A DNA stretch of 36,674 bases. Origin: Chloroflexota bacterium (GTDB taxonomy: Bacteria; Chloroflexota; UBA11872). Every line of letters begins with the position of its first letter. The stretch's first letter is position 1. The translations under genes and the position numbers were made by a program. Below are positions 7,912 to 20,041 of the stretch, piece after piece. The notes under the pieces were generated by a model. That model was not told the origin of the DNA, did not search any database, and worked only from the letters and a program-made list of their open reading frames with translations. Location: the NCBI GenBank assembly GCA_022820025.1, contig JAJEGF010000003.1, forward strand, positions 1-36,674. The letters are read 5' to 3'.

Positions 7912-8271
7912 GTGAACGCAGATCTGGCCGCCATGCGCGCGTACACCCGAGCGCTGGCTTCGCGGACACGGCTGATGACGCTTGACGAGCTGGCTTCGGC
8001 GGACGAACTGGATGTGAGCGAGCTGTCGCGCCGTGTCGGCGTCAGCCAGCCGCTGATGTCGTGGCACTTGCGGCGCTTGCGGCGCGCGGGGCTTGTCCGT
8101 GCGCGACGGCAGGGTCGCCGAATGCTCTATGCGCTGGATCGACCCACCCTGAGCGCCCGACATGCGGCACTCAGCAACCTGATTGACGATCTGACGGCTT
8201 CCGAGACGCGTAGATCGGAAGCCGAAGCTGTCGAGCCGGCCCGAGCGCTGGCCAAGGCTGTAGGAGGATAG
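7912..8271 (+). CDS. ArsR-family winged-helix transcriptional regulator
   Basis: A 119-residue DNA-binding protein. The helix-turn-helix reads [19 protein letters not shown], followed by the wing [15 protein letters not shown], typical of the ArsR/SmtB family. The metal-sensing cysteines of the founding members (ELCVCDL-type) are absent and the product has no cysteine if translation starts at GTG 7912, so it is not a classical metal sensor. That start is preferred because GAGG lies five bases upstream; an ATG at 7897 adds five residues but lacks a ribosome binding site. Its stop lies two bases before the ino1 start, so it heads the inositol-lipid operon and probably regulates it. The signal it senses is unknown. 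Confidence 0.9.
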
Positions 8272-8273
8272 GC

Positions 8274-9374
8274 GTGTCCAAAGTTCGAGTCGGAATCATC
8301 GGCGTCGGGAATTGCGCCTCGTCGCTGGTGCAGGGCGTGAGCTTCTATCGCGACGCCGCGGCCGACGAGTTCATTCCCGGATTGATGCACGCGCAGCTTG
8401 GTCCGTACCACATCGGCGACGTGGAGTTTTCGGCGGCGATCGACATCGATCGGGACAAGGTCGGAAAGGACCTGTCGGAAGCGATGGTTGCCGCGCCCAA
8501 CAACACCCCGCAGTTCGCGGAGGTTGGGCACCTGGGCGTGCCGGTGATGCGCGGGATGACGCATGACGGTATCGGCGCCTACATGGCCGACAGCGTGTAC
8601 AAGGCCGAAGGCGCCACGGACAACATCGTGGAACTGCTGCGGGACACGCACACGGACGTGGTGGTGAACTTCCTGCCGGTGGGCAGCGAAGAGGCGACCA
8701 AGTGGTACGTGGAACAGATTCTGAATGCCGGCTGCGCGATGGTGAACTGCATGCCGGTATTCATCGCACGCGAGGACTACTGGCAGGGGCGATTCCAATA
8801 CGCCGGGGTTCCGATCATCGGCGACGACGTGAAGTCGCAGGTGGGCGCCACCATCACCCACCGCGTGCTGACCCGGCTCTTCAGGGAGCGGGGCGTGAAG
8901 GTTCTGCGCACCTACCAGTTGAACGTGGGCGGGAACTCCGACTTCAAGAACATGCTGGAGCGCTCGCGGCTGGAGTCCAAGAAGATTTCCAAGACCGACG
9001 CGGTGACCAGCCAGCTCGAGTACGACATCGGCGCCGAAAACGTGCATATCGGGCCCAGCGATTTCGTGCCGTGGCTGGGTGACCGGAAGTGGGCCTACAT
9101 CCGGATGGAAGGCGTGTCGTTTGGCGGGCAGCCGCTGAACGCCGAACTGAAGCTGGAAGTGGTGGACTCGCCGAACTCAGCCGGCGTGGTGATCGATGCC
9201 TTGCGCTGCTGCAAGATCGCGATGGACCGCGGTCTGAGCGGCGCGGTTGAAGGGCCATCGGCCTACCTGATGAAGTCGCCGCCGATCCAGTACTCGGACG
9301 AAGAGGCGCGCGTGATGACGGATGAGTTCATCCGCACGGCGACCATCGCCGCCGGCGCCAGGAGCGATGCATAG
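8274..9374 (+). CDS. ino1: Inositol-3-phosphate synthase
   Basis: Converts glucose 6-phosphate to myo-inositol phosphate in an NAD-dependent reaction, the only de novo route to inositol. The 366-residue product matches the compact prokaryotic (actinobacterial and archaeal) form: NAD-binding [13 protein letters not shown] at residues 6-18, the central [19 protein letters not shown] block, and [12 protein letters not shown], which carries active-site lysine and asparagine residues of the family. The GTG start at 8274 follows a GGAGGA site inside the end of the ArsR gene. It is the first enzyme of a tight four-gene operon leading to an inositol phospholipid and its glycoside. The call is firm. 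Confidence 0.97.
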
Positions 9375-9377
9375 CGC

Positions 9378-10244
9378 GTGATCACGCTAGTCGCCATAGC
9401 TGCGCAGGCCGAACGATGGGTGCCCCGCCCGGTCAAATTCGGCCTGGCCCGGTTGTTCGGGATGCTGGTCTATTGGCTGGTTCCGCGCATCCGGCGGAAT
9501 ACGACGGCCAACATGTCGGTGGTTTTGAACCGGCCGCCGACCGATCCGAGGGTACGGGCGCTGGCGATGCGGTCGGTGATCAACTACGCCGAGTTTATCG
9601 TGGACTTCCTGCGCAACTACCGAATGACGCAGGAGGAGTTACTACGGCACACGATGGCGATTGAGGGTCTGCAGCATCTGCGTACCTTCAAGAGCATGGG
9701 TCGCGGCGGCATCATGATCACGGCGCACTTCGGCAGCTGGGATTGCTGCGGCAGCCTGGTTTCGGTTGACCAACCCACGCATGCCGTAGCCGAAACATTC
9801 GACAGCCGATCGCTGACCGCATTGCTGGATAACGTACGGGCGCGGAAGAACCTGCGGACAATCCAGTTGGGGAACGCGGCGCGTGGGATTCTTCGGACGC
9901 TGCGGCGGGGCGAGTTCGTGGCGCTGCTGGCGGATCGACCGACGCCGGGCAAGGGCGTGCAGGTTATGTTCTTCGACCGGCCGGTCTGGGTTCCGGAAGG
10001 CGCGGCGGTGCTGGCGCGGCACACGGGCAGCCCTCTGCTGGTGGGCGGGATGATCCGATATTTTGACGGGACCTATTCGGCCCACGGGATGCCGCCGATC
10101 ATGATCGATAAGGACCGACCGGCGGCCGAGGCGGTCCAGGCGGCCATGCAGCAAGTGATGTGGGACCTCGAGACCCTGATCCGGAAAGCGCCGGCGCAGT
10201 GGTACATGTTCCGCCCGATGTGGCCGGAGGCGCTTGAGGCGTGA
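9378..10244 (+). CDS. LpxL/PatA-like lysophospholipid acyltransferase
   Basis: A 288-residue member of the LpxL/HtrB lipid acyltransferase family. The catalytic H-x4-D motif is HFGSWD at 117-122, and a second conserved block ADRPTPGKGVQVMFF follows at about 190-205. In lipid A producers this family acylates lipid A; in mycobacteria the homologue PatA acylates the mannose of phosphatidylinositol mannosides. No lipid A genes are in the window, and the gene lies between ino1 and a PimA-like glycosyltransferase, as patA lies next to pimA in mycobacteria, so the PatA role is preferred. The GTG start lies three bases after the ino1 stop, and its stop overlaps the next start (GTGA). The ribosome binding site is weak, so coupling is likely. 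Confidence 0.85.
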   Translation: MITLVAIAAQAERWVPRPVKFGLARLFGMLVYWLVPRIRRNTTANMSVVLNRPPTDPRVRALAMRSVINYAEFIVDFLRNYRMTQEELLRHTMAIEGLQHLRTFKSMGRGGIMITAHFGSWDCCGSLVSVDQPTHAVAETFDSRSLTALLDNVRARKNLRTIQLGNAARGILRTLRRGEFVALLADRPTPGKGVQVMFFDRPVWVPEGAAVLARHTGSPLLVGGMIRYFDGTYSAHGMPPIMIDKDRPAAEAVQAAMQQVMWDLETLIRKAPAQWYMFRPMWPEALEA

Positions 10245-11428
10245 GAATCCTGCAGGTCTCGCCGTACGACTTTCCCTATCCGGGAGGCGTGACCCAGCAC
10301 ATCCTCAACCTGGAACGAGAACTGCGGGCGCGCGGTCACGAGGTGACCATCATGGCGCCAAGTACCGACAACCAGGTTGAAGAGAAGTTCCCGCAGTTCG
10401 TGCGAATCGGGTCCCGCGTGGTGCCACTGCCGGTCAACCAATCGCGAGCGCGGCTGACGTTGTCGCCCACGCTGGTACCGCGGGTCCGGCGCTTCCTGCG
10501 ACAGGAGCGTTTCGACATCGTGCATCTGCAGGAGCCGCTGGTTCCGGCGCTGCCGCTGACGGTGCTGCAGTACTCGACGAGTGTCAACGTCGGTACGTTT
10601 CACGCCGCGCGCAATTCGGCGTTGTTCTACCGGACCACCCGACCGCTGATTCGCCGGCTGCAGCGCCGCCTGCACGGGAAGATCGCGGTTTCGGAAGCGG
10701 CGAGGGAACTGGTGTTCCGCTCATACAAGGGCGACTATCGAATCATCCCCAATGGCATCGACGTTGACTTTTACGGCGCGCCGCAGCCGCCGGCCAGCGA
10801 ACTGCAGGACGGCAAGCTGAACATCGTGTTCGTGGGCCGGCTGGAGAAACGCAAGGGCCTGGATTACCTGCTGCGAGCCATGTCGCTGGTGTGCCAGTTG
10901 CGACCGCAAGCGCGATTGATCGTGATCGGCGCGTTTCGACCCGGCCAGCGACGGGCCTATTTGCGACAGATCCAGCAGTTTGGGCTACGGCACGTGGTGT
11001 TCAAGGGCTTCGTCTCGGACGAAGAAAAGCGGCAGTATCTGCAGACGGCCGACATCTATTGCTGGCCGGCGCTGGGCGGCGAAAGCCAGGGCATCACGCT
11101 GCTGGAAGCCATGGCCGCCGGAACTCCGGTGGTGGCCTCGGACATTCCGGCCTCCCGAACCATGCTGACGGACCAGGAGGCGGCGATCCTGGTGCCTCCA
11201 AAGGACCACGTCGCGCTGGCCCGCGCCCTGATGCGGATCGCGGACAACCCCGAGAAGGGACGGCGGATGGCCGAGGCCGGACGTCAGCGAGCCCTTGACT
11301 TCACCTGGAGCACTATCGCGAATCGTGTCCTGGCCTACTACGAGGAACTGCTCAACGAGGATGAGCTTGGCGGGTCGTATTGGTCCGCCGATGCGGACCT
11401 GATTCGAGCCGGGGGTTCGCCGTCGTGA
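10241..11428 (+). CDS. PimA-like GT4 glycosyltransferase
   Basis: A 395-residue retaining GT-B glycosyltransferase. It follows PimA, the GDP-mannose:phosphatidylinositol mannosyltransferase, closely in layout: SPYDFPYPGGVTQH at 7-20 (PimA has PYSFDVPGGVQSH), VPLPVNQSRARL at 61-72, GTFHAA at 118-123 with the PimA-type active-site histidine (H121), GRLEKRKG at 199-206 for diphosphate binding, and GGESQGITLLEAMAAG at 279-294 with the E-x7-E pair (E281, E289). The sugar cannot be read from sequence, so mannose is an inference. It overlaps the acyltransferase stop by four bases and the next gene's start by four bases (GTGA in both cases). Confidence 0.88.
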   Translation: MRILQVSPYDFPYPGGVTQHILNLERELRARGHEVTIMAPSTDNQVEEKFPQFVRIGSRVVPLPVNQSRARLTLSPTLVPRVRRFLRQERFDIVHLQEPLVPALPLTVLQYSTSVNVGTFHAARNSALFYRTTRPLIRRLQRRLHGKIAVSEAARELVFRSYKGDYRIIPNGIDVDFYGAPQPPASELQDGKLNIVFVGRLEKRKGLDYLLRAMSLVCQLRPQARLIVIGAFRPGQRRAYLRQIQQFGLRHVVFKGFVSDEEKRQYLQTADIYCWPALGGESQGITLLEAMAAGTPVVASDIPASRTMLTDQEAAILVPPKDHVALARALMRIADNPEKGRRMAEAGRQRALDFTWSTIANRVLAYYEELLNEDELGGSYWSADADLIRAGGSPS

Positions 11429-12045
11429 ACAAGGCGCACATCGAGGCGAGCACGCGCCGCACGGTGGAGCGCCTGGTGGCGCCGCTGGCGCGGACCGGGA
11501 TCGATCCGAATGCGCTGACGGTAGCGGGCCTGATGGTCAGCGCCGTGACGGCGGTCTGCATCGGCTTCGGTTGGACCGTGGCCGGCGGGCTGCTGGTGTT
11601 GATTACCGGCGGGTTCGACATGCTGGACGGCGCGGTAGCGCGGGTCAGCGGCAACGGGTCAAGATTCGGCGCGTTTCTGGACTCAACGCTGGACCGCTGG
11701 GCCGAGGGGCTGATCTTCACGGGCCTTGTCTGGTACTTCGTCGCGCAGGACGCACGGATTGAAGTCGTGCTGGCGGTGACCACGATGGTGGGGTCGATGC
11801 TGATCAGCTACACGCGGGCCCGCGCGGAGGGCTTGGGCGTGGACTGCGAGGTCGGGATTCTGCAGCGGCCGGAGCGGCTGCTGCTGCTGGGCATCTCGCT
11901 GCTAGGCCCAGCCTGGCTGTTGAGCGCGGGCATGTGGCTGCTGAGCGTTGTCACGCAGGTCACGGCGGTTCAACGCATCCTGCACGTGCATCGTGAACTC
12001 GAGCGGGAAAAGCAGGCCGCCGCCAACGACTCGCCGAGGGCGTAG
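11425..12045 (+). CDS. CDP-alcohol phosphatidyltransferase (PI or PI-phosphate synthase-like)
   Basis: An integral membrane enzyme of 206 residues with about five or six transmembrane segments. The complete CDP-alcohol phosphotransferase motif is present: D65-x2-D68-G-x2-A72-R73-x8-G82-x3-D86-x3-D90. These enzymes join CDP-diacylglycerol to an alcohol. In this operon the alcohol is most simply inositol or inositol phosphate, giving phosphatidylinositol (phosphate) as acceptor for the PimA-like enzyme. Start GTG 11425 overlaps the glycosyltransferase stop; the frame is open upstream to 11380, but that part has no ribosome binding site. The stop is four bases from the convergent dehydrogenase gene. 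Phosphatidylglycerophosphate synthase is the alternative, but context makes it less likely. Confidence 0.85.
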   Translation: MNKAHIEASTRRTVERLVAPLARTGIDPNALTVAGLMVSAVTAVCIGFGWTVAGGLLVLITGGFDMLDGAVARVSGNGSRFGAFLDSTLDRWAEGLIFTGLVWYFVAQDARIEVVLAVTTMVGSMLISYTRARAEGLGVDCEVGILQRPERLLLLGISLLGPAWLLSAGMWLLSVVTQVTAVQRILHVHRELEREKQAAANDSPRA

Positions 12046-14184: not shown

Positions 14185-15075
14185 GTGACGCCTGACGCGT
14201 CGACCCCTGATCTGGCGGCAGATCCGCTGGGATTCGCCCTGGAGGCGCTGGCGGATCAGCGCGTAGCCGCCGACGCGTCGCCTGGCACTCCAGACGAGGT
14301 TGCGGCAGCGCGGCGCGCCTGGGCGGTGCTGGATAGCGAGTCGTTTCCGAAGGCTTCCGTGGGTGCCGCTCAGGCGCTGGTGCTGGGCGTGCGGGCGATG
14401 GTGGGTGCCGGTCAACCGGTCGGCCGGGCCGCGGCGCTGGAGGCCATCGAGGCCGCGGAGTCCTGGATCGAGCACACGAAACAATCCGAGGTGGAGGCCC
14501 GAGCCGATGCGCAGGAGGCGCGCGGAGTCGCGCGTCGACTGGCCGCCGAGAGCGGGGACACGCTGGACGCTCGCATGCTGGAGGCGGCGGCGATGGACCT
14601 GTTGGCGGCCGCCCAATTCAGGCAGACCGCAGGAGATCGCGAGGCAACAGCGCGGACGGACCTGGAAATCGCCGAGGTCTTCGCTCTATACCCGGCCGAT
14701 GACCGTGCTCCGCTGATCGAGCGGGCGGTGGGCCATGCGCGGCGCGCCGCGGCTACGTTGACCCCGGATGTGGACGCCACGGCGCATGCGCGCTGCCAGC
14801 TTCTATTGAGCGGGCTGCTGCTGGACCATCCCAGGACCGATCCACGGCAGTTTGCTTCGCCGGCCGTGGGGCTGGCGGACATTGCGCTGAAGGTCGTCGA
14901 CGCCGCGCGAGCGCCGCTGGTGGCAGCTCGCGCGTGGCAGGCGCGGGCTCGCGCCCTGGGAATCGGCGGAAGCGCCGACCACACGGCCGCTTATGCGCGA
15001 GCGGCCGCGCTGCTGGATGCGGCGGGACTCGTTGCGGAGAGCCGACGGCTGCGCCGGAAGCACGGCTGCGCATGA
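14185..15075 (+). CDS. Unrecognised alanine-rich helical protein coupled to halogenase
   Basis: A 296-residue soluble, Ala/Arg/Glu-rich protein that looks wholly alpha-helical, with regularly spaced helical pairs (for example QALVLGVRAMVGAG, then EAIEAAESWIEHTKQ, AAAMDLLAAAQFRQTAGD, AARAWQARARALGIG). This suggests a TPR-like or other helical-repeat scaffold. No signal peptide, membrane segment, metal-binding motif or catalytic motif is visible and no family was recognised. The start is GTG 14185. Its final codons overlap the ATG of the halogenase gene (ATGA), so the two are almost certainly translated together. It might present a substrate or stabilise the halogenase, but that is speculation. 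Codon use and coupling make it a real gene. Confidence 0.75.
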   Translation: MTPDASTPDLAADPLGFALEALADQRVAADASPGTPDEVAAARRAWAVLDSESFPKASVGAAQALVLGVRAMVGAGQPVGRAAALEAIEAAESWIEHTKQSEVEARADAQEARGVARRLAAESGDTLDARMLEAAAMDLLAAAQFRQTAGDREATARTDLEIAEVFALYPADDRAPLIERAVGHARRAAATLTPDVDATAHARCQLLLSGLLLDHPRTDPRQFASPAVGLADIALKVVDAARAPLVAARAWQARARALGIGGSADHTAAYARAAALLDAAGLVAESRRLRRKHGCA

Positions 15076-16760
15076 ACAGCGGGTACGACGCGCTGATCCT
15101 GGGCGGCGGGCCGGCCGGGTCCACGCTGGCCACGTTGCTTGCGCAGGACGGGCTGCGGGTGGCGCTGATGGAGCGGGAGCACATGCCGCGCCCGCACGTG
15201 GGCGAGTCGCTGATTCCGGGTGTGCTGCCGGCGCTGGACGCGAGCGGCGCGCTGCCGCTGGTCGAAGAGGCGGGCTTCACGCGGAAATACGGGGCGACGT
15301 ACATCTGGGGCCGGACGCGCGAGCCGTGGACGGTGAAGTTCAGCGAGGTGTACCCGGACCAGGCCTACGCATGGCAGGTCGACCGCGCGAAGTTCGACAA
15401 GCTGCTGCTGGACCACGCGGCCGCGGAGGGCGCGGAGGTCTGGCAAGGCGTCACGGCGCTGGGGCCGGTGGGTTCGGCGGACGACGTGCAGGGTGCGCGA
15501 GTGCGAGCGGAGGACGGGCGCGAGCGCGCACTGACGGCCGCCCTGACCATCGACGCGACGGGACAGGACGCGCTATTCGGACGGGTGTTTCGGACGCGCC
15601 AGTACAACACGGCGCTGCGGCACGTGGCGTTCTACGGACACTGGAGCGGCGGGCGCAACCTGGATGACGTGCTTGCGTCCGACGACACCAAGGACGCCGG
15701 GAACATCCTGATTGTGACAGTGCCGGACGGGTGGATCTGGCACATCCCCATCGCGCACACGATGCGCAGCGTGGGGGTGGTGACGGACCCGGAGGCGGTG
15801 GCCGGCCTGAGCGCGACCAATCGCACCGACTACTACCTGGAGCAGGTGCGAGCGTGCCCGGAGATTGCCGCGCTGCTGGAAGGCGGCGCGTGGGTGAGCG
15901 AGCGGGTTGAGGCGCTGAGCGACTGGTCGTTCTTCTGCTCACGGTTCGCCGGTCCCGGATTCATGCAGGTCGGTGACGCGGCGTGCTTTATCGACCCGAT
16001 TCTGTCTACGGGCGTGACGCTGGCGGTGAATGGGGCGCTGCGGGCGGCTCGGGCGATCCGGACAGGACGGTCGGCCCCGTGGCTGCAGGGCATGGCGATG
16101 GACTGGTACGAGAGGGAGTACCGCAGCATCGCCACGGATTTTGCGGACCTTGCCGAGCACTGGTACGGCGGGCACGCGGACGCCGACGCGTGGTTCTGGC
16201 GGGCCAAGAAGCTGGCGGACCCAACGCGCAACTTCTCGATCCGGCAGGCCTTCATTCACCTGTCGGCAGGCGTGACCGGCACGCAGGGGGCGGGCGGAAG
16301 GCTGCGCTCGGCGGGCGGCTACAGCCCCCGGCAGCTGGAAATGATCTACGACAACCTGGCGACTGACCTGGATTCCGACAGCCGGATCCAGATATCGGAA
16401 GCCGAGGCGGGATTCGGTCGCGGCTCCGCGCGCGCGCCAACAGCCACCAGCGTACTCGGGGGCCGGCCACGGCTTCGCGAGGCCATCAGTTTTCGTCCGC
16501 ACATGGCCGAGCACGACGAGGTCCTGCGCCCGATCACGCGGGTCACGCGGGTACACCCCAACGCCGGGCCGGAGCACATCGAGTTGCCGATCGCGGCGCT
16601 CGCCGTGCTGGAACAGCTGGACGGACGCCGCAGCGGCCTGGACATCGCGGCCGACTTGCGCGAGCGGTATGCCGGCACGCCGATCGAATCCGACGTGCGC
16701 GACCTGGTGGCGGGGACGTTGAAGCGCCTGGCCGAGACGGGGGCCGTCGAAGTCTTGTAG
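15072..16760 (+). CDS. Flavin-dependent halogenase-like monooxygenase with PqqD-like C-terminal domain
   Basis: A 562-residue flavoprotein. The N-terminal FAD loop GGGPAGS lies at 11-17, followed by HVGESLIPGVLPALD at 42-56. The halogenase fingerprint GWIWHIP (G-W-x-W-x-I-P) is intact at 220-226, and the flavin-contact box GDAACFIDPILSTGV lies at 301-315. K72 in FTRKYGATYIWG is a candidate for the hypohalous-acid lysine. Residues about 485-562 form an extra domain (IELPIAALAVLEQLDGRRS, then DIAADLRERY, then VRDLVAGTLKRLAETGAV) that resembles PqqD-like winged-helix RiPP recognition elements. Geranylgeranyl-reductase-like proteins share the fold but lack the GWxWxIP box. It overlaps the upstream helical protein by four bases. 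Halogenation, rather than plain hydroxylation, is inferred. Confidence 0.85.
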   Translation: MNSGYDALILGGGPAGSTLATLLAQDGLRVALMEREHMPRPHVGESLIPGVLPALDASGALPLVEEAGFTRKYGATYIWGRTREPWTVKFSEVYPDQAYAWQVDRAKFDKLLLDHAAAEGAEVWQGVTALGPVGSADDVQGARVRAEDGRERALTAALTIDATGQDALFGRVFRTRQYNTALRHVAFYGHWSGGRNLDDVLASDDTKDAGNILIVTVPDGWIWHIPIAHTMRSVGVVTDPEAVAGLSATNRTDYYLEQVRACPEIAALLEGGAWVSERVEALSDWSFFCSRFAGPGFMQVGDAACFIDPILSTGVTLAVNGALRAARAIRTGRSAPWLQGMAMDWYEREYRSIATDFADLAEHWYGGHADADAWFWRAKKLADPTRNFSIRQAFIHLSAGVTGTQGAGGRLRSAGGYSPRQLEMIYDNLATDLDSDSRIQISEAEAGFGRGSARAPTATSVLGGRPRLREAISFRPHMAEHDEVLRPITRVTRVHPNAGPEHIELPIAALAVLEQLDGRRSGLDIAADLRERYAGTPIESDVRDLVAGTLKRLAETGAVEVL

Positions 16761-18504: not shown

Positions 18505-18673
18505 CGGCGGCGTGCGACGGATGCGGGTCAGAGCACAGCGGAACTCTGCTGGCACCGGCTGGGCATGGCCGGGGTGATCAGGTCGTGTAGTCGCACTGGA
18601 GGTTGCTCACGAGTACGTGGGCCGGAGCGGTTCTCGGGCCGTGAACTTGAGGATAGGCGACCAATTGCGTCTG

Positions 18674-20041
18674 TCAAAACGAAGTTTGCGGCTGCCAGCC
18701 GCGTTCGAGTTGACGCTGCGCCCCGAGGCCGAAGGCGACGGTCGCGAATGCCTCGATGACCAGCGCGCCTCCGATGGCGATGACGCCGATCACGCCACCG
18801 GAGAGATTCGTGGCGTTGACACCAATCAGCAGGATGGCGGCAAGCCCGACAAGCCTGATTGCGTTGACGTAGACCAGAAAATGGGCACGCCGGACGCGCA
18901 GGATGGCGCTGGTGTAGATGGCTTCCTGCACGAGAATCGGCGGCAGCAGGGCCAGGATGCGCAGGCCGGCTTCGGTCATCTCCTGGAGGCGGCCCGTAGC
19001 GCCGAGCAGATCGTGGACCACCAAGCTCGTGAGCGGTGGAATGAAGGCGACCACGGCTGCGGGAACGACAGTGATCAGCCCAACGACGTTGGCGAAGCGG
19101 CGGGCAGCGGCGGGACTCTCGCCGCGGCCCATGAGAGCCAGCAAGGTCGGTTGCACGCCCCAGAGGGCGATGAGAAAGATCTGGTTGACGCCGAAGGTCA
19201 GCGACACGGCGGCCACGCTGGCCTCGGGCTCGGGGGCGCGCGTGAGGATGGCGTTGATGACCGGCTGCGTGACGGAAGGCAGGAAGGCCGCCACCAACAA
19301 TGGCCCGAAGAATCGGAGCAAGGCGGCGTAGGTTGGCGGCGAACCGTCCGACGGCTCGAGGTCGCGCCGCAGCGGACCGGTGGTTCCAACCACCAGCACG
19401 AGGGTTTCGACGCCTGCTCCGGCCGTTACCGCGATGGCGGCGATAGCAGCGCCAGCGGACGGATCAAGCCAGAGCACCACCGCGGCCACGGCGATCACCG
19501 CGACGGCGCCGGCGCCGGTGCCAACCCAGACGAGGCGCGGACGACCGATCCTGAGCGCGACGCCATACAGGTGGGTGCGGACAATGGCCAGGACAGGAAA
19601 AGGCGCAAGCGCCACCAGCGCGGCGGCAGATTCGGCGCGAAGGACGCCCGTGGTGGCGAATATGCCGTCCAGCAACAGATCGAGCACGGGCGTGAAGGCC
19701 ACGACGGCAGCCACGAGACCGCTGAGCACCGCAAAGAGCGCGACGAAGCGGCGGAGCCGGCTCAGCGAGCCCTGGTCATCCAGAAAGACCAGGGTCAATT
19801 GCTGGATCCGCATCTGGGGCAACGCCACCAGGCCCATGACGCCCATGGCGATGGCGTAGCCGCCGATGGCGGCTTCCGGCTCGACGCTGCGCGCCATGAG
19901 GCCGTTGAGCGCCGGCGCGAGGACATGGGTAATACCTAGATTCAGGGATGCCGGCAGGAGGAGCGTGGTCGCGCGCCGGTTGAAGGACGGCGACTTCTGT
20001 ACCGCATTGCCCGCTTCCGGGCGTGCGGGTGTTCGATTCAA
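18674..20041 (-). CDS. MATE/MOP-superfamily polytopic membrane protein
   Basis: A 455-residue protein with about twelve hydrophobic helices arranged as two similar halves. This is the pattern of the MOP (multidrug/oligosaccharidyl-lipid/polysaccharide) flippase superfamily. The N-terminal block LLLPASLNLGITHVLAPALNGLMARS resembles the first helices of MATE and ANKH-like proteins. The substrate is not predictable: candidates are drugs, lipid-linked sugars or small anions. The start is the TTG at 20041, which overlaps the stop of the PHP gene (TTGA) and has AGG four bases upstream. No ATG exists near the expected N-terminus. It is the third gene of a minus-strand unit with nuoB and ends before a strong terminator. 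Confidence 0.78.
   Translation of the reverse strand: MNRTPARPEAGNAVQKSPSFNRRATTLLLPASLNLGITHVLAPALNGLMARSVEPEAAIGGYAIAMGVMGLVALPQMRIQQLTLVFLDDQGSLSRLRRFVALFAVLSGLVAAVVAFTPVLDLLLDGIFATTGVLRAESAAALVALAPFPVLAIVRTHLYGVALRIGRPRLVWVGTGAGAVAVIAVAAVVLWLDPSAGAAIAAIAVTAGAGVETLVLVVGTTGPLRRDLEPSDGSPPTYAALLRFFGPLLVAAFLPSVTQPVINAILTRAPEPEASVAAVSLTFGVNQIFLIALWGVQPTLLALMGRGESPAAARRFANVVGLITVVPAAVVAFIPPLTSLVVHDLLGATGRLQEMTEAGLRILALLPPILVQEAIYTSAILRVRRAHFLVYVNAIRLVGLAAILLIGVNATNLSGGVIGVIAIGGALVIEAFATVAFGLGAQRQLERGWQPQTSF

Follow-up and report, generated by a model that had tools for sequence, protein, structure and literature searches.

QhpG (7CTQ) is a peptidyl-tryptophan dihydroxylase composed of a catalytic domain and a C-terminal winged-helix domain with a pocket between them; the halogenase CmlS resembles it most closely in structure, and it oxidises a tryptophan within a protein (PMC7876137). 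Among flavin halogenases, CndH and SgcC3 are classed or presumed to use carrier-bound substrates, and CmlS acts on an aliphatic acyl substrate (PMC8407142). By a 2025 count, four halogenases act on peptide tryptophan, namely MibH, SrpI, MppI and ChlH, and Amm3, which had been predicted to do so, in fact acts on a small molecule, a result that urges caution in inferring peptide substrates (PMC12715798). SrpI is a RiPP brominase without an RRE, and MibH works independently of the leader, on leader-freed peptide (PMC10858898).

RRE domains are often fused to the enzymes that they serve, across many enzyme families, and about 60% of them are fused to or lie near a known RiPP protein (PMC12710340). 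A dioxygenase–RRE fusion has been described in 'Entotheonella' (PMC12858407), and the NRPS oxidase BmdC retains a remnant RRE (PMC8795117). No halogenase is among the fusions named in the excerpts of PMC12710340 and PMC12858407 used here, and excerpts of the open-licence PMC literature, including PMC10373908 and PMC9426513, yielded no report of a PqqD-fused flavin halogenase.

We analysed a window of 36,674 nucleotides from a Chloroflexota genome that encodes a protein, P0001, combining these two elements according to an earlier, sequence-only reading. The coordinates given in that reading are correct, with an ATG at 15072, 562 codons and a stop at 16760. The gene and the parts of its product are as follows.

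15072..16760, + strand: predicted flavin-dependent halogenase (P0001, paralogue A) with a putative C-terminal PqqD/RRE-type domain, 562 aa
15072..16220, + strand: P0001 catalytic FAD/halogenase domain, residues 1–383, with K72, E45, D284 and GWIWHIP
16221..16460, + strand: P0001 linker of lower conservation, residues 384–463
16461..16757, + strand: P0001 putative PqqD/RRE-type winged-helix domain, residues 464–562
16521..16592, + strand: P0001 beta2-loop-beta3 hairpin, residues 484–507, the most invariant part of the domain in 13 paralogue-A sequences

The halogenase box and the FAD motifs are intact, as had been stated (GGGPAG at residues 11–16, GWIWHIP at 220–226), and so is a further motif, GDAACFIDPILSTG, at residues 301–314. 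The Pfam Trp_halogenase model matches P0001 at 3.8e-33 (115.5 bits against a cut-off of 21). The best whole-protein relatives in the PDB are 8zop and then CndH (3e1t; 222.7 bits), both aligned to residue 402, followed by ChlB4 (aligned to 357) and CmlS (3i3l; to 407). With positions counted by hand, K72 aligns with the CmlS lysine and D284 with the aspartate of CmlS DWSY, and both residues are invariant in all 11 rows of the alignment, which comprises P0001 and ten relatives. We take their CmlS counterparts, K71 and D277, to be the chloramine lysine and the aspartate that is covalently linked to FAD. The position of CmlS Tyr350 is occupied by Phe357 in P0001, by Phe in CndH, by Leu in orthologue L015 and by Tyr in the more distant relatives L031, L034, L035 and L041; the phenylalanine weakly favours an aromatic rather than an acyl substrate. 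Judged by its sequence, P0001 is predicted to be an FADH2-dependent halogenase of the CndH/CmlS class, and enzymes of its type probably put chlorine or bromine on aromatic rings.

The described systems each share part of this arrangement. CmlS (3I3L) resembles P0001 in catalytic fold, lysine, flavin-linked aspartate and length, but differs in its aliphatic acyl substrate, and P0001 scores 218.8 bits against the CmlS equivalog NF033113, under the cut-off of 900. CndH (3E1T) has the same phenylalanine as P0001, but it is 512 aa long and classed as carrier-dependent, and the alignment with it ends before the C-terminal domain. SrpI and MibH are, like predicted P0001, flavin halogenases, and their substrates are peptides; unlike P0001, SrpI has no RRE and MibH uses peptide freed of its leader. 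QhpG, which acts on a protein, likewise joins a halogenase-like FAD domain to a small C-terminal winged helix, but it hydroxylates, has its winged helix at residues 349–429 and is encoded in the qhp operon. Against the QhpG equivalog NF049967, P0001 scores 186.7 bits, under the cut-off of 240. The sequence-only reading had pointed to no characterised halogenase with such a layout; the two-part plan of QhpG weakens that statement (PMC7876137). The layout of P0001 has a precedent and is less unprecedented than had been claimed.

The C-terminal part of P0001 had been proposed to form an extra PqqD-like domain from about residue 485. A separate domain is present, but it starts at about residue 464, some 20 residues earlier. 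The Pfam PqqD model PF05402 matches residues 509–547 of the whole protein with 21.0 bits, slightly below its cut-off of 23.4, and the isolated C-terminal piece with 24.5 bits, above it. Within an alignment of the window sequence and its 12 orthologues (A1), 11 of the 13 C-terminal pieces match PqqD at E <= 1, and Pfam offered no family competing with PqqD for these pieces. As whole proteins, paralogue L003 and L030 match Pfam PqqD weakly (E 0.18 and 0.048, respectively), and paralogue L002 and orthologue L015 show no match at E <= 1. The best NCBIfam model for the P0001 piece is the PqqD model TIGR03859 (5.8e-5, 22.9 bits against a cut-off of 46). For the L003 and L030 C-termini, the best PqqD-type models are TIGR04353 (0.016) and TIGR04248 (0.093), both under their cut-offs and each outscored by an unrelated NCBIfam model; no PqqD-type NCBIfam model matched the C-termini of L002 and L015.

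We also compared a profile of eight C-termini (the window sequence, four orthologues, two paralogues and one relative) with 177,635 PDB sequences. The top three matches are all PqqD, namely 5sxy (E 0.0079), 5vrd (0.077) and 3g2b (0.16), although 5sxy and 5vrd share a molecule name and aligned residues (PqqC/D), so that the three probably represent two independent proteins. Profiles of the PqqD/RRE type match this region in Pfam, in NCBIfam and in the PDB search, but the curated cut-off is passed only in Pfam and only by the isolated piece. We considered whether the PqqD match could have arisen by chance and think it unlikely, because two different profiles both rank PqqD chains first in the PDB, because the C-termini of P0001, L003 and L030 match NCBIfam models of the PqqD type (L003 and L030 only weakly) and because dN/dS is low. 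Nor does the region resemble, at the profile level, the C-terminal lobes of the more distant Chloroflexota halogenases examined. None of the six more distant Chloroflexota halogenases that were scanned (L031–L035 and L041) matches PqqD at E <= 1; profile comparisons that might have joined the P0001 domain to the C-terminal lobes of such distant enzymes find no similarity, and in the PDB search the CmlS C-terminus went undetected by profiles of the P0001 domain.

AlphaFold2 returned one confident model out of five for residues 455–562 (best-model pLDDT 89.8; the others 61, 59, 50 and 45). The full-length prediction, made with 14 sequences, was poor (pLDDT 47.7) and was left out of the fold search. 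A Foldseek search with the domain model found nothing at E <= 0.001; its top match was the methyltransferase Rv2067c (E 0.0048), followed by the TbiB1 RRE with its leader (E 0.0078), and further matches included the carbamoyltransferases GdmN and NovN and, lower down, PKMT2. Together, the sequence matches and the predicted structure support a PqqD/RRE-type fold for the domain. The known domains of this type (5sxy, 3g2b and 5v1u) differ from it in being free-standing or attached to other enzyme types, and, unlike about 60% of RREs, that of P0001 is not joined to a known RiPP protein or encoded close to one.

Purifying selection acts on the domain, with a constraint similar to that on the catalytic part: omega is 0.07–0.19 for the domain versus 0.08–0.13 for the catalytic part, across ten of the 12 orthologues (all except L013 and L015). 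In paralogue A, the 484–507 hairpin is 71% invariant, the catalytic part 58% and helix 2 9%. The value for the hairpin is not extreme, since 8 of the 98 segments of equal length in the domain reach 71%; it is 71% in paralogue C as well (catalytic part 77%) and 42% in paralogue B.

Three full-length halogenase copies, mutually 44–46% identical, are present in the genome, in which P0001 is the only protein that matches PqqD at E <= 0.001. All 12 genomes of the same genus, including this one, have at least two matches at E <= 1e-20 (three in nine genomes, four in one and two in two, some of them partial). A search of other genomes for the domain pair had been suggested; three paralogues recur within one Chloroflexota genus.

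A second recurrent element lies directly upstream, in the window and at a paralogue C locus (L049), as follows.

14185..15075, + strand: 296-aa ORF overlapping the halogenase gene by 4 bp (ATGA); possible helical-repeat partner
L049 11648–13489: helical-repeat gene upstream of paralogue C

The window ORF has no Pfam match. It has a homologue in all 12 syntenic loci; relative to four orthologues, more than half of the differences fall at third codon positions and the gaps are whole codons, and its G+C pattern by codon position agrees with the strand. These features make a genuine gene probable. In all eight loci examined, a gene for a helical-repeat protein directly precedes paralogue C; it has about 613 codons and about twelve 43-residue helical repeats, and Pfam found nothing in the one such protein searched. 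Three of the eight loci supplied the sequences for the repeat model, which leaves five as independent tests. In two paralogues, at the window and at L049, the halogenase gene overlaps the end of the upstream gene by 4 bp. For paralogue B, a repeat gene is adjacent in two of seven loci and about 3 kb away in a third, and in the other four none was found among ORFs of at least 120 residues within about 3.5 kb. Among the paralogue A upstream ORFs, only that of L013 fits the repeat model (E 9.3e-6, where 80 shuffles gave 0.039 at best), and those of the window, L012 and L015 do not. The case for a shared type of upstream partner is therefore strong for paralogue C, suggestive for paralogue A and weak for paralogue B, and the window ORF is possibly related to the helical-repeat genes of paralogue C. 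A conserved partner gene beside the halogenase, as seen in the paralogue C loci and in the overlap in the window, is a new lead.

The presence of a PqqD-type domain suggests that the substrate is held by a larger molecule. The explanation that we prefer, and to which we give an even chance of being right, is that an aromatic group is halogenated on a macromolecule-bound substrate, with the C-terminal domain acting as a lid or dock. Reduced flavin from a separate reductase (the genome has two flavin reductase matches) would react with oxygen and halide, and the hypohalous acid would travel to Lys72 and then halogenate an electron-rich aromatic ring. By analogy with QhpG, the C-terminal domain may be placed over the pocket, where it would dock or gate a substrate that forms part of a larger molecule or is attached to one and that the product of 14185–15075 may present. 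This placement is proposed on the precedent of QhpG, in which a winged helix lies over the pocket, the substrate is a protein and the fold is the same (PMC7876137). Several observations count against this explanation: RRE-like domains can also be relics, as in BmdC (PMC8795117); structurally similar domains occur in the small-molecule enzymes GdmN and NovN; the gene has no biosynthetic cluster around it; the upstream ORFs of the window, L012 and L015 miss the repeat model; paralogue B has a repeat gene nearby in only three of seven loci; the full-length prediction is poor and only one of the five domain models is confident; and Phe357 is replaced by Leu in L015.

The flanks of the halogenase gene resemble lipid and housekeeping genes. 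The 20 flanking ORFs scanned, from 2738 to 26012, include no RiPP enzyme and no carrier protein, and two of them lack any Pfam match. Eight neighbouring genes occur at matching places in the 12 orthologous loci, with the exception of the ABC-transporter pair in L015 (an ORF at 18617–19939, regarded as artefactual, was excluded from this search). Consecutive inositol-phosphate synthase, acyltransferase, glycosyltransferase and CDP-alcohol transferase genes at 8274–12045 resemble a phosphatidylinositol-mannoside-type lipid operon.

A first alternative is that P0001 is a variant B halogenase acting on an aryl group carried by an ACP or PCP, with the winged helix serving as a docking surface or surviving as a relic. 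The carrier-bound substrates of its relatives CndH and SgcC3 (PMC8407142) favour this, as does the precedent of BmdC, in which a remnant RRE persists in an NRPS tailoring enzyme (PMC8795117). The genome has three PP-binding matches, all on other contigs, among them domains in frames of 3471 aa and 105 aa on contig C36. Against it, none of the 20 flanking ORFs encodes a carrier domain, and three paralogues compare with three PP-binding matches in all; we consider this alternative rather unlikely. The two C36 frames follow one another near 37210–40390, perhaps as parts of a polyketide synthase, and could be an unlinked source of substrate.

The idea that all three paralogues are RRE-guided halogenases, in which the domain would bring a ribosomal peptide or the neighbouring helical-repeat protein to the halogenating site, so that these Chloroflexota would halogenate proteins or peptides by an undescribed route, is one that we hold to be doubtful.

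It is unlikely, in our view, that P0001 is a RiPP halogenase whose domain binds the leader of a precursor encoded elsewhere while the catalytic domain halogenates a core Trp or Tyr. True PqqD proteins are the nearest sequence relatives of the domain, TbiB1, a leader-bound RRE, is its second Foldseek match and fusion of RREs to the enzymes served is common (PMC12710340). Against this stand the known peptide halogenases, since SrpI lacks an RRE and MibH is leader-independent (PMC10858898), and the neighbourhood, with no RiPP enzyme among the 20 flanking ORFs; the only SPASM protein of the genome is on another contig. Short precursor peptides nearby had also been suggested as a test. The intergenic gaps close to the halogenase are about 14, 115 and 215 bp (depending on the gene starts chosen), and nine ORFs of at least 20 residues, mostly in the two larger gaps, have matching translations in 8–11 of the 12 loci. 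When aligned in 10–11 of the 12 loci, none of the nine has an excess of differences at third positions, and eight have frameshifting indels in some loci; the ninth (18512–18577, 21 residues) is free of frameshifts and has flat codon-position differences (32, 32, 25). The flat differences and the frameshifts indicate conserved DNA rather than coding sequence, and we therefore reject a small precursor peptide in the two neighbouring gaps. Six further short ORFs near 6.0–6.3 kb have matches in one to four of the 12 loci. Of the earlier interpretation, the PqqD/RRE-type fold is supported; the step to a peptide or carrier-bound substrate, though reasonable, finds no support in the nine gap ORFs or the 20 flanking ORFs.

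Last, the winged helix could have a purely structural role, as the C-terminal lobe of halogenases of this class, with an ordinary free small molecule as substrate; such a winged helix is present in QhpG and reportedly in CmlS, other Chloroflexota halogenases (about 540–580 aa) have non-PqqD lobes and the L034 lobe faintly matches a methyltransferase C-terminal winged helix (E 0.1), but the specific likeness of the P0001 domain to PqqD, and its lack of profile similarity to the CmlS C-terminus or the distant lobes tested, make this unlikely.

If, as in our preferred explanation, the domain docks the substrate, it would provide a built-in handle for steering halogenation. Matches at E <= 1e-20 are present in 34 of the 301 Chloroflexota genomes searched, a count that is not additive with the 12 orthologous loci because these largely come from the same genomes. 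None of the six genomes listed from the sister genus has a match at this threshold, of the five listed from the neighbouring family a single genome does, and most of the more distant Chloroflexota matches align over the catalytic part only. The abundance of sponge halogenases has been found to correlate with that of Chloroflexi (PMC6644159), and P0001-type genes are candidates for such halogenases if their hosts are sponge symbionts. A thirteenth locus, L017 from Methylothermaceae, is 37% identical and not an orthologue; it has a tandem pair of halogenase-like ORFs of 397 and 434 aa at 8001–10492. Among viral contigs, 48 pattern matches included no relative of P0001. Halogenase matches occur in 64 plasmid records, and among the 30 of these that were listed no alignment extends beyond query residue 456 and no fusion was seen. 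One plasmid, the 23.7-kb NZ_CP120084.1 of Staphylococcus haemolyticus (L056), encodes a 410-aa halogenase-like flavoprotein beside beta-ketoacyl synthase genes.
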